64,000 nt of DNA from positions 434,001-498,000 of the forward strand of contig CP103908.1 of assembly GCA_024970065.1 (NCBI GenBank), written 5' to 3'. Source of the DNA: Pediococcus acidilactici (GTDB lineage Bacteria; Bacillota; Bacilli; Lactobacillales; Lactobacillaceae). Below are positions 30,292-33,290 of the stretch, one piece after another. The first letter of the stretch is position 1, and each line of letters starts with the position of its first letter. The notes below the pieces were generated by a model that did not search any database, had not been told where the DNA came from, and saw only the letters and a program-made list of their open reading frames with translations. The translations under genes and the position numbers were made by a program.

Positions 30292-32016
30292 ATGAACTGG
30301 GAAGATTCAGTTAAAGAATGGCAAGATTTTGCCGATTTAGATTTTAACTTAAAACAAGAACTAAAAGAATTAGCAAAGGATCCACAAGCGCTAAAAGAAG
30401 CTTTTTACGCACCAATGGAATTTGGTACTGCTGGAATGCGGGGGGTAATGGGCCCGGGGATTAACCGGATGAACATTTACACGGTTCGCCAAGCAACGGA
30501 AGGCTTAGCTAACTTCATGGACACACTAGCTCCCGAAGACAAGCAACGGGGAGTAGCAATTAGTTTTGACTCCCGTTACCATTCGCAAGAATTTGCTTTA
30601 GAAGCTGCGGGCGTTTTAGGCAACCACGACATTCCAACGTTCGTGTTCGATAGTATGCGGCCTACTCCAGAACTTTCTTTTACGGTTCGGGAATTAAATA
30701 CTTACGCTGGTATTATGATTACGGCTAGTCACAACCCTAAGCAATATAACGGGTATAAAATTTACGGTCCGGATGGTGGACAAATGCCACCAATGGAATC
30801 AGACCGGATTACCGAATACATTCGGAAAGTTACCGATATTTTTGGCGTAAAAGCTTTAACACAAAGTCAACTTCGTGAAAAGGACTTAATGACCTTGATC
30901 GGCGAAGATATTGACCAAAAATATCTTGCACAAGTAAAGACGGTTTCTATTAACCACGACCTTATTAAAAAATATGGCGCAGATATGAAGTTGATTTATT
31001 CACCACTTCACGGAACTGGAAAGGTAGTTGGCGGCCGTGCCCTTGAAAATGCGGGCTTCAAAGATTATACGATGGTTCCTAAACAAGCCATTGCGGATCC
31101 TGAATTTGGTACCACACCGTTCCCTAATCCAGAATTTGCCCAAACTTTTGACTTAGCCATCGAGTTAGGTAAAAAGCAACAGGCAGACCTGTTAATTGCC
31201 ACGGATCCCGACGCAGACCGGCTAGGAGCGGCCGTTCGTTTGCCAAGTGGCGATTATCAATTATTGACCGGAAATCAAATCGCGGCGGTAATGTTAGAAT
31301 ACATTTTAACTGCCCATGACGAAGCGGGAGATTTACCAAAGAACGCTGCAGCCGTAAAATCCATCGTTTCTAGTGAATTGGCAACCCGGATTGCGGAAGC
31401 TCACGGCGTAGAAATGATTGACGTTTTGACCGGATTCAAGTACATTGCCGATCAAATCAAACATTATGAAGAAACCAATGAACACACCTTCATGTTTGGG
31501 TTCGAAGAAAGTTACGGCTACCTTGTCCGGCCGTTTGTCCGGGATAAGGATGCTATTCAAGGGATTGTGCTATTGGCAGAAATTGCCGCTTATTACCGGA
31601 GTAAGGGTCAAACCCTTTATGATGGGGTGCAAAGCCTCTTCACAACGTACGGCTACCATGAAGAAAAAACCATTTCAAAAGACTTCCCTGGTGTGGATGG
31701 TAAAGCGAAGATGGCAGCAATTATGGAAAAAGTTCGTGAAGAACGCCCAGATCACTTTGACGACGTTGCGGTGGTTGAAACCCAAGACTTCTTAAGTCAA
31801 ACTAAGTACGCAGATAATGGCGAAACTTCACCAATTTCGCTACCAAAAGCGGACGTTTTGAAGTTTAAGCTGGCAGATGGCTCATGGATTGCAATTCGTC
31901 CATCCGGAACGGAACCAAAGATTAAGTTCTACATCGGAGCAGTGGGCGAAAGCGAAGAAGCAACCTTGAAGAAGATCGAAAACTATGAAAAGGCGATTGA
32001 TGGGTTGATAAACTAG
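30292..32016 (+). CDS. pgm: Phosphoglucomutase / phosphomannomutase
   Basis: A 574-aa alpha-D-phosphohexomutase with the phosphoserine loop TASHNPKQYNGYK, metal-binding DPDADRLG, sugar-binding GFEESYGYL and the phosphate-binding end RPSGTEPKIKFY. It interconverts glucose-6-phosphate and glucose-1-phosphate, feeding GalU. CGAGGAGGA is eight bases before ATG 30292, and TATAAT at about 30250 is a likely -10. A 640-bp non-coding stretch with four large hairpins follows before a terminator, so the mRNA probably has a long structured 3' end. Confidence 0.96.
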   Translation: MNWEDSVKEWQDFADLDFNLKQELKELAKDPQALKEAFYAPMEFGTAGMRGVMGPGINRMNIYTVRQATEGLANFMDTLAPEDKQRGVAISFDSRYHSQEFALEAAGVLGNHDIPTFVFDSMRPTPELSFTVRELNTYAGIMITASHNPKQYNGYKIYGPDGGQMPPMESDRITEYIRKVTDIFGVKALTQSQLREKDLMTLIGEDIDQKYLAQVKTVSINHDLIKKYGADMKLIYSPLHGTGKVVGGRALENAGFKDYTMVPKQAIADPEFGTTPFPNPEFAQTFDLAIELGKKQQADLLIATDPDADRLGAAVRLPSGDYQLLTGNQIAAVMLEYILTAHDEAGDLPKNAAAVKSIVSSELATRIAEAHGVEMIDVLTGFKYIADQIKHYEETNEHTFMFGFEESYGYLVRPFVRDKDAIQGIVLLAEIAAYYRSKGQTLYDGVQSLFTTYGYHEEKTISKDFPGVDGKAKMAAIMEKVREERPDHFDDVAVVETQDFLSQTKYADNGETSPISLPKADVLKFKLADGSWIAIRPSGTEPKIKFYIGAVGESEEATLKKIENYEKAIDGLIN

Positions 32017-32044
32017 AGAATGGAGGCCAGCGGGTAGTTTTTGA

Positions 32045-32108
32045 GGATTAACTGGATTTTAGGTTTGATCGTGGTTTGAGCGATCGAACCTAAAATTTGG
32101 TTAACCGG
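32045..32108 (+). repeat. Hairpin unit A1
   Basis: The left arm starts GGATTAACTGGATTTTAGG and the right arm ends AAATTTGGTTAACCGG, with loop TGGTTTGAG. About 26 pairs form with one bulge; the four non-Watson-Crick positions are all G.U-compatible on the plus strand. The flank 32109-32158 holds a second small hairpin, TTGACT / AGTCAA. Confidence 0.9.
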
Positions 32109-32158
32109 AGAAAATTGCTGGCCGGAATTCGTTTTGACTAAAAGGCAGTCAAGCACAA

Positions 32159-32222
32159 GGATTAACTGAATATCGGGACTAATCGCGTTTTGAGCGATTG
32201 GTTCCGATATTTGGTTAACCGG
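32159..32222 (+). repeat. Hairpin unit B1
   Basis: Starts 114 bp after A1. It has the same outer arms (GGATTAACTG and TTGGTTAACCGG) and a loop GTTTTGA, but a different inner stem (AATATCGGGACTAATCGC) that still pairs with its own right arm; the non-Watson-Crick positions are again G.U. Confidence 0.9.
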
Positions 32223-32272
32223 AGAAAACTGGGTGCCGGAGCACGTTTCGGCTATATAGCAGTGAAGCGTAA

Positions 32273-32335
32273 GTTTAACTGGATTTTAGGTTTAATCGCG
32301 GTTTGAGCGATCGAACCTAAAATTTGGTTAACCGG
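32273..32335 (+). repeat. Hairpin unit A2
   Basis: Starts 114 bp after B1 and is nearly identical to A1, including the following ~50-bp linker. One inner position becomes an A.C mismatch. Confidence 0.9.
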
Positions 32336-32385
32336 AGAAAATTGCTGGCCGGAATTCGTTTTGACTAAAAGGCAGTCAAGCACAA

Positions 32386-32449
32386 GAATTAACTGAATAT
32401 CGGGACTAATCGCGTTTTGAGCGATTGGTTCCGATACTTGGTTAACCGG
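32386..32449 (+). repeat. Hairpin unit B2
   Basis: Starts 113 bp after A2 and is nearly identical to B1 apart from a T-to-C change near the end of the right arm. A and B units alternate, so an A-B dimer of about 227 bp appears to have been duplicated. Confidence 0.9.
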
Positions 32450-32509
32450 AGAAATTTGGGTACCGGAGCACGTTTAAATCCAACAATCAATTTAATAACT
32501 CGATAAACA

Positions 32510-32537
32510 AAGATTCGGCTAACGGCCGGATCTTTTT
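32510..32537 (+). terminator. Terminator downstream of the hairpin array
   Basis: AAGATTCGGC pairs with GCCGGATCTT (one G.T) around a five-base loop, followed by T6. It probably ends the pgm transcript, which would place the hairpin array in the pgm 3'UTR. Confidence 0.85.
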
Positions 32538-32660
32538 TAGTTTTCAGCTGTTTTAAATGGGTTTGCTAAGCCAAGTTTGTTCCCCGGGGGAAAACTTTCA
32601 CATTCCAGTTTATTTGTGATAGTATGTTAACAATTTAAATTTATTTAGGGGGAATTTTTT

Positions 32661-33290
32661 ATGGGGATGCATCAATTTTTTAAGAGTTTAAGCAATTTAG
32701 AAACGATCTATCGGGCACCGGGCTTCTTTAAGTATCAGAAGCACTCGGTCGCAGAACATTCCTTTAAAGTGGCGGAAATCGCCCAATTTTTAGGTGACGT
32801 AGAAGAGCATGCGGGAAACCAAATTAATTGGCGTTTACTTTATGAAAAATCCCTTAATCACGACTATAACGAACGGTTCATCGGCGACATCAAGACGCCG
32901 GTTAAGTACGCGACGGCCGATTTACGCAAAATGTTGGCAAATGTAGAAGATTCAATGAAGGATAACTTCATTAAAAACGAAATCCCTGCTGAATTCCAAG
33001 ACGCTTACGAACGACGTTTATCAGAAGGCAAGGATGACACGATTGAAGGTAAAATTTTGGCAGTAGCGGATAAGATCGACTTGCTTTACGAGTCGTTTGG
33101 TGAAATCCAAAAGGGAAATCCGGAAGACGTTTATACTGACATCTATAAGGAAAGTTTAACCACGATTGTTAAGTATAAAAAGATGCCGAGCGTGCAATAC
33201 TTCCTCGAAAAAGTTTTACCCGAATTGTTAAATGAAGAGTTCACGGACCAACTGAAATTAGAAAAAATCAGCCGTACAATTATTCAATAG
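32661..33290 (+). CDS. YfbR-like HD-domain phosphohydrolase
   Basis: A 209-aa HD-superfamily protein with metal ligands in HSVAEHSFKVAE (about 29-40), LNHDYNERFIGDI and ADKIDLLYE, the layout of YfbR-type 5'-deoxynucleotidases that dephosphorylate dNMPs. Substrate is inferred. AGGGGGAA stands eight bases before ATG 32661. It sits between the pgm terminator and the uvrB SOS promoter and appears monocistronic. Confidence 0.8.
   Translation: MGMHQFFKSLSNLETIYRAPGFFKYQKHSVAEHSFKVAEIAQFLGDVEEHAGNQINWRLLYEKSLNHDYNERFIGDIKTPVKYATADLRKMLANVEDSMKDNFIKNEIPAEFQDAYERRLSEGKDDTIEGKILAVADKIDLLYESFGEIQKGNPEDVYTDIYKESLTTIVKYKKMPSVQYFLEKVLPELLNEEFTDQLKLEKISRTIIQ

Follow-up and report, generated by a model that had tools for sequence, protein, structure and literature searches.

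The hairpins that follow the pgm gene in the analysed window, a stretch of 64,000 nucleotides of the Pediococcus acidilactici genome, belong to a family of palindromic elements that is dispersed, anchored on stop codons, conserved in structure, polar with respect to strand and subject to turnover of its arrays. These elements probably correspond to a structured RNA at mRNA tails that has spread like a small mobile element; in our best reading, they form a dispersed, stop-codon-anchored family of 3'UTR hairpins. A 3'UTR RNA role combined with MITE-like spread of the family is given a probability of about 0.6, and the two components are compatible with each other.

Four hairpins in the order A1-B1-A2-B2 lie between the TAG codon of pgm, whose product shares 98% identity with its counterpart in Pediococcus acidilactici DSM 20284, and an intrinsic terminator (Table 1). 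A first-pass annotation of this DNA had described four tandem hairpins alternating in two types and had placed them in the pgm 3' region ahead of a terminator. Both statements were confirmed, the former by the sequence, the folds and the recurrence of the A-B two-unit block (201 nt, 97% identity, spacing of 227), the latter by the sequence and by a terminator scan, which reported a single site on the plus strand of 32017-32540, at 32509. The core stems of A1 and B1 fold into 25 contiguous pairs and two more G-C pairs, with 7-nt loops; in A2, as in B2, the fold leaves a single position unpaired, which in the sequence is the A.C mismatch already pointed out. The proposed unit length of ~114 bp did not stand, as the outer and middle stems had been overlooked: since A1 has both of these stems, the complete unit begins at 32015, inside the TAG, and is ~121 nt long. 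By inspection, the 5' outer arm is missing from B1, A2 and B2, all three of which retain the 3' outer arm, and A1, B1 and A2 are each followed by a short tail that forms a stem-loop. The predicted fold of 32017-32540 reaches -218.4 kcal/mol (z = -11.6), a value equalled by none of 100 shuffles.

Table 1. Features of the pgm array (window coordinates)
Feature	Position	Strand	Basis and remarks
Upstream gene, named pgm in the first-pass annotation	30292..32016	+	ORF list; stop TAG at 32014-32016
Unit A1, complete first unit	32015..32135	+	R1 match and fold; its AG closes the TAG stop
A1, 5' outer arm	32017..32031	+	Pairs with 32121-32135; fold; helix 1 covariation in 41 first units
A1, 3' outer arm	32121..32135	+	Fold
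A1, middle stem, 5' arm	32033..32042	+	Pairs with 32110-32119; fold
A1, core hairpin (7-nt loop at 32073-32079)	32045..32106	+	Folds
Small tail stem-loop (GACT/AGTC) after A1	32136..32150	+	Sequence and array fold
Unit B1, core hairpin and 3' outer arm, without 5' outer arm	32159..32246	+	Folds, R1 match
Unit A2, core hairpin and 3' outer arm	32275..32362	+	R1 match at 32266-32382, E 1.6e-14
Unit B2, core hairpin and 3' outer arm	32383..32475	+	R1 match at 32383-32451, E 2.6e-14; 3' arm by inspection
Intrinsic terminator 3' of the array	32509..32535	+	Terminator scan; fold of 32505-32540, -15.6 kcal/mol

Model R1 was built from alignment A2, which contains 41 complete first units of the window's genome (G000) and of its sister species (G004); 42 were found in these two genomes and one, L060:1794-1932, was left out. 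R1 matches A1 at 32015-32155 with 136.7 bits (E 2e-39, the A1 copy being among the training sequences) and B1 at G000:C1:466140-466269, that is, positions 32140-32269 of the window (E 1.6e-21). In the whole of G000, BLAST returned 68 matches (E up to 10) and R1, with 150 candidates scored, at least 138 (E up to 1), some of the latter being minus-strand echoes of the same hairpins. Merged by hand, with the echoes and three weak matches removed, the R1 matches correspond to 61 loci, type II elements (described below) included, so the pgm array is not a product of chance. R1 matches at E up to 0.01 are present in all 12 Pediococcus genomes, in numbers ranging from 1 (G008) to 134 (G004) per genome.

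A broader model, R2, was used for the searches at family, order and class level, in which stricter filters were applied and at most 26, 21 and 16 candidates were scored per genome (Lactobacillaceae, Lactobacillales and Bacilli, respectively), so that per-genome counts are lower bounds. R2 matches were obtained in 61 of 121 Lactobacillaceae genomes, the window's own included, which represent 22 of 40 genera, and in 19 of 148 Lactobacillales genomes (15 of 49 genera), four of which are Lactobacillaceae and 15 lie outside this family. Among 200 Bacilli genomes, a class-level draw that includes some Lactobacillales, the window's own genome alone gave matches. In agreement with the first-pass annotation, which had recognised no known RNA family, a search of the whole window against Rfam 15 returned a single tRNA as its sole match, and over 31900-32700 the best E-value was 1.3, with scores far under the gathering thresholds. 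No description of the hairpin family was recognised in searches of the open-access literature, a scope outside which most subscription journals lie. Regarding extrachromosomal carriers, A1-B1 of the window gave no match to plasmids and phages, the L291 and L239 elements gave none to plasmids, and the L272 element matched three P. damnosus plasmids.

The position of the elements relative to genes was counted with ORFs that are mechanical calls. In G000 and G004, the nearest upstream ORF is on the same strand for 36 of the 42 first units and, under the cut-off used, on the opposite strand for the other six; 28 of the 42 start within -2 to +5 nt of a same-strand stop codon. Seventeen of these 28 start at -2, where a T and the AG of the element together form the TAG; pgm is one of them, its first unit being tabulated at 0 with a copy clipped by 2 nt (true offset -2). 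In a second set of 87 hits, which shares G004 copies with the first set and includes type II elements, 64 have an ORF end between -60 and +100, and 28 fall within -2 to +5, as against about 3 expected among these 64 under a uniform distribution. Beyond these two genomes, 55 loci were considered (22 from other Pediococcus and 33 from other genera), two of which, L194 and L274, had their strand misread. An ORF end lies in range at 40 of the 55 and at none of the other 15, and 26 fall within -2 to +5. A case annotated by NCBI is found on the P. damnosus plasmid pL21532-2, on which a CDS ends at 1485 and the element occupies 1485-1625 (E 1.3e-24). The proteins encoded upstream of the elements have varied functions (20 scanned, 19 with a Pfam match). 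Two subfamilies can be distinguished: (i) type I, the kind found at pgm, mostly adjoins the stop codon, and (ii) type II, which begins with AGAGTGGGACAAAA, is mostly located farther downstream or has no ORF end in range. The first-pass annotation had held that a merely dispersed DNA repeat would speak against an RNA; the copies are indeed dispersed, but they are mostly placed and oriented on genes.

Conservation of the structure is apparent in two alignments. In alignment A2, 91.3% of the cells are paired, as against 75.4% after shuffling, two-sided changes occur at 39 of 48 pairs, and sliding one arm by a single base brings pairing below 50%. The corresponding figures for alignment A3, a genus-wide set that includes type II elements and was fitted to the model (64 rows, 55 distinct), are 88.6% against 62.7%, with two-sided changes at 43 of 48 pairs; the UGAG/CGGA internal loop of the middle stem is conserved in this wider alignment. 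Between close relatives, 34 double changes from one Watson-Crick pair to another were counted, about 4 being expected if the arms were independent, and differences amount to ~5% at paired and 11% at unpaired positions. Homologous units bearing paired changes elsewhere, which the first-pass interpretation required, thus exist. A complete unit is ~120 nt long, typically starts at the stop codon or a few nt from it on the strand of the gene, and is predicted to fold into an outer stem, a middle stem interrupted by the UGAG/CGGA internal loop, and a core hairpin of considerable length, after which comes a tail that often has a small stem-loop. By inspection, the two ends of the element are unlike each other (AGAGUG and CACGUUU). 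At columns 8-10 of alignment A2, the outer stems occur in two main forms, one fully complementary and the other interrupted by a symmetric GGA/GGA internal loop. In L038:1492-1581 (G006), the core hairpin is nearly absent and the UGAG/CGGA internal loop and the outer stem are kept.

A plus-strand polarity, in which mismatched stem positions are compatible with G·U pairing, had been noted at pgm and holds across the family. Indeed, on the plus strand, G·T combinations outnumber A·C combinations by 169 to 25 in alignment A2 and by 450 to 119 in a set of 109 rows. As shared ancestry inflates such raw counts, changes were counted along a minimum spanning forest built on 174 core sequences, 106 of them with at least one partner to which they are 87% identical or closer; the forest comprises 83 edges, 25 of them within one locus, and the core pattern lets in some palindromes on both strands (eight reverse-complement overlaps). 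Along this forest, 50 changes lead from Watson-Crick to G·U pairs and 18 to A·C (p 1e-4), or 49 and 12 when the other partner is taken as the start. The excess is seen at A-T pairs (32 against 6) and at G-C pairs (18 against 12), so it is not explained by a simple strand mutation bias, which would push the two pair types in opposite ways; once such a bias is removed, a ~2.8-fold preference for G·U is left. At unpaired positions of the plus strand, A/G changes outnumber C/T changes by 80 to 12, uncorrected for composition, and a mutation asymmetry may contribute to part of the polarity.

The first-pass annotation had also interpreted the difference between the A and B stems as covariation inside the array. 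This interpretation was not upheld as it stood: the two types are better explained as two element lineages that were swapped and amplified in blocks. Among 31 ortholog pairs of first units between G000 and G004, 12 are at least 85% identical, and in these no compensatory excess was found (their 570 base pairs contain one double change, for an expectation of 1.1; 22 single changes keep pairing and 20 break it). The other 19 pairs, below 85% identity, show 196 double changes, of which 162 are still paired, and their flanks stay close. Furthermore, in 8 of 18 low-identity cases, the first unit of G004 shares 92-98% identity with a different unit of the corresponding array in G000, so that a good part of the variety corresponds to unit swapping; three of these eight have more bits and a longer match to another locus. 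The pgm array itself reads a-b-a-b in G000 and b-a in G004 (strings to which the parser adds some spurious marks), and the core of B1 is 97% identical over 70 nt to the first unit at pgm in G004. Arrays arise by tandem amplification, often of alternating types, the 5' outer arm usually being kept in the first unit alone. In 41 arrays with two or more marks (a few second marks not being true units), this arm pairs best with the 3' arm of the first unit in 32 cases and of the second in six, with two classed as same and one as a tie, so that it goes usually, but not always, with whichever unit comes first. Foldback copying of DNA, replacement of elements or selection may underlie this pattern. 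Of the six second-unit cases, L001, L258 and L263 are parser errors that favour the first unit, and L018, L243 and L244 look real. In L243:10709-10848 (G004), the partner of the 5' outer arm is the second unit (-21.5 kcal/mol) and not the first (-9.3 kcal/mol), as though an older element had taken up a unit in its interior.

The presence of elements was compared over 380 kb of G000 and 360 kb of G004. Of 40 elements in G004, 25 have a counterpart in G000, six have none and nine could not be placed; for 28 elements in G000, these numbers are 26, one and one. The seven absences comprise three clear type II elements (G004 offsets 3182, 165034 and 252012), two weak matches of the type II kind, one intermediate element with an imperfect 13-nt duplication and one element with a decayed remnant in the other species. 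By inspection, the empty site shows a terminator-like hairpin with a T run at four of the six G004-only sites. No element was present in the 420 nt after pgm in the eight other Pediococcus genomes inspected, so the lineage of P. acidilactici probably acquired the element at pgm. For type I, no signal of target-site duplication was detected at 57 loci (mean best match of 6.12, against 6.13 in controls; scores of 9 or more at 2 of 57 loci and 13 of 333 controls). The transposase domain Y1_Tnp was not found in G000 or G004, which carry the most copies, and is present in one of the 12 Pediococcus genomes.

Judged from these sequence comparisons, the element would be transcribed as part of the 3'UTR, and the stop-adjacent hairpin would act on the mRNA 3' end, most likely by protecting the coding sequence against 3' exonucleases or by being cut by RNase III; the family, type I copies included, would spread and turn over in a MITE-like manner. 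The RNA role is favoured by the location, the gene-strand orientation and the G·U preference, and the MITE-like spread by the variation in copy number, the presence or absence of type II elements and the turnover of units. A simple RNA story is weakened by the lack of compensatory excess in close orthologs and by the swapped and alternately amplified units, and DNA-level template switching can also keep palindromes perfect, which counts against an RNA reading. The family could be an inert selfish MITE-like repeat, with complementarity maintained by hairpin template switching at the DNA level and by copy exchange, and with the position after stop codons reflecting where insertions are tolerated. 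We regard this as possible, though appreciably less probable than the combination of RNA role and spread. Its copy number is high and variable between species, 19 of the 31 ortholog pairs diverge between close flanks, eight of 18 sister first units resemble another unit of the same array, presence and absence concern type II and intermediate elements with one imperfect 13-nt duplication, and the pgm copy is missing from eight other Pediococcus genomes, all of which such a repeat would account for, as it would for the close orthologs. However, it leaves unaccounted for the anchoring of most copies on stop codons in gene orientation across genera, the G·U polarity in A-T and G-C pairs alike, and the lower divergence of paired than of unpaired positions.

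Within the RNA readings, a translation-coupled switch on mRNA 3' ends is a tentative and rather doubtful proposal: since the stop codon contains the start of the 5' outer arm, each ribosome that terminates there would cover and open the outer stem, which would close only when translation is sparse. Through such a module, the machinery of mRNA decay would be informed about translation at dozens of genes unrelated to each other, and array length and first-unit exchange would tune the response. An auxiliary terminator or attenuator, in which the long hairpin helps RNA polymerase to stop after the gene, would fit the 3' location and the terminator-like hairpins with a T run at the empty sites of G004-only elements, but is unlikely: no T run follows any of the four units of the pgm array, this array is followed by a separate terminator, and a terminator-like site lies within 250 nt downstream of 11 of 35 arrays in G000 (1.4 in base-shuffled sequence). 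The hairpin form, the strand polarity, the tandem clusters and the missing duplication signal would also suit a REPIN-like single-stranded DNA element moved by an IS200/RAYT-type (Y1_Tnp) transposase; this origin is disfavoured and highly improbable, as Y1_Tnp was not found in either high-copy genome and occurs in one of 12 Pediococcus. Least probable of all is a pgm-specific RNA, either a riboswitch that senses a ligand or an sRNA that acts in trans, to which the elaborate conserved fold could point, against the 3' location, the 61 loci and the absence of a function shared by the 20 scanned upstream genes. A pgm riboswitch as such was rejected in view of the varied functions of these genes.

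Among known systems, judged by their descriptions, the present family comes closest to palindromic repeats of the MITE-like kind (ERIC, Yersinia and Enterococcus elements); as in MITEs, a small palindrome is dispersed in many intergenic copies, here with arms that are variable yet complementary. Of the kinds described so far, the Efa/EFAR elements of Enterococcus are the most similar, a likeness drawn from their descriptions, and they may be kin. A paper of 2007 on the E. faecalis EFAR elements reportedly describes an L-shaped form with two stem-loops and insertion into stem-loop targets. In the sections available of the respective reports, Efa-1 is a 163-nt element with 65 copies, typed as intergenic and forming a pair of adjacent stem-loops (PMC2267715), and Efa elements tend toward the 3' ends of CDSs, preliminary data having suggested that they stabilise the co-transcribed mRNA (PMC1590033). 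Two adjacent stem-loops, the long hairpin and the tail stem-loop, are likewise found here close to stop codons; unlike in those partial descriptions, the elements abut the stop codons and form alternating arrays. ERIC, YPAL and NEMIS are presented, in extracts of one account, as mainly intergenic repeats of ~100-200 bp with long stem-loop transcripts, for which an influence on the stability of mRNAs or on their cleavage by RNase III has been proposed and target-site duplications are listed (PMC2229807), whereas type I arrays have no duplication signal, a difference taken from that description. REPINs and BIMEs, according to portions of their description, are extragenic hairpin-forming repeats with many copies and some tandem clusters (PMC3116915), features shared by the present family; REPINs go with RAYT transposases, unlike the elements of the high-copy genomes, in which Y1_Tnp was not found. 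Pneumococcal BOX elements are modular, with a repeated middle module, and from description alone the present elements resemble them in this respect. Finally, the L17 downstream element (RF01708), a motif of potential 3'UTRs in Lactobacillales and Listeria, is described in excerpts of its report solely 3' of ribosomal protein L17 genes (PMC2864571); the pgm array, in contrast, has no Rfam match.

The family is either a widespread control element of mRNA 3' ends in bacteria of industrial importance or a selfish repeat with an unusual preference for translation stops. The variants that occur in nature (units alone or in arrays, units that were swapped, and sister genomes without the pgm copy) offer ready-made experiments on the effect of 3'UTR hairpins on mRNA decay. 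Several further observations concern the distribution of the elements. Between 790000 and 1310000 of contig C1 of G000 (520 kb), none of the 61 element loci is found and 15.9 would be expected (p 1e-8). In G004, L160:3183-3323, L172:12013-12153 and L168:5035-5175 are type II elements at sites where the sister genome has an ordinary terminator-like hairpin, and L171:8954-9092 is flanked by an imperfect 13-nt direct repeat, the site being empty in the window's genome. Pairs of elements facing each other on opposite strands, a few hundred bases apart, also occur in G004 (L239:7028/7265, L244:2629/2964 and L160:2946/3183).
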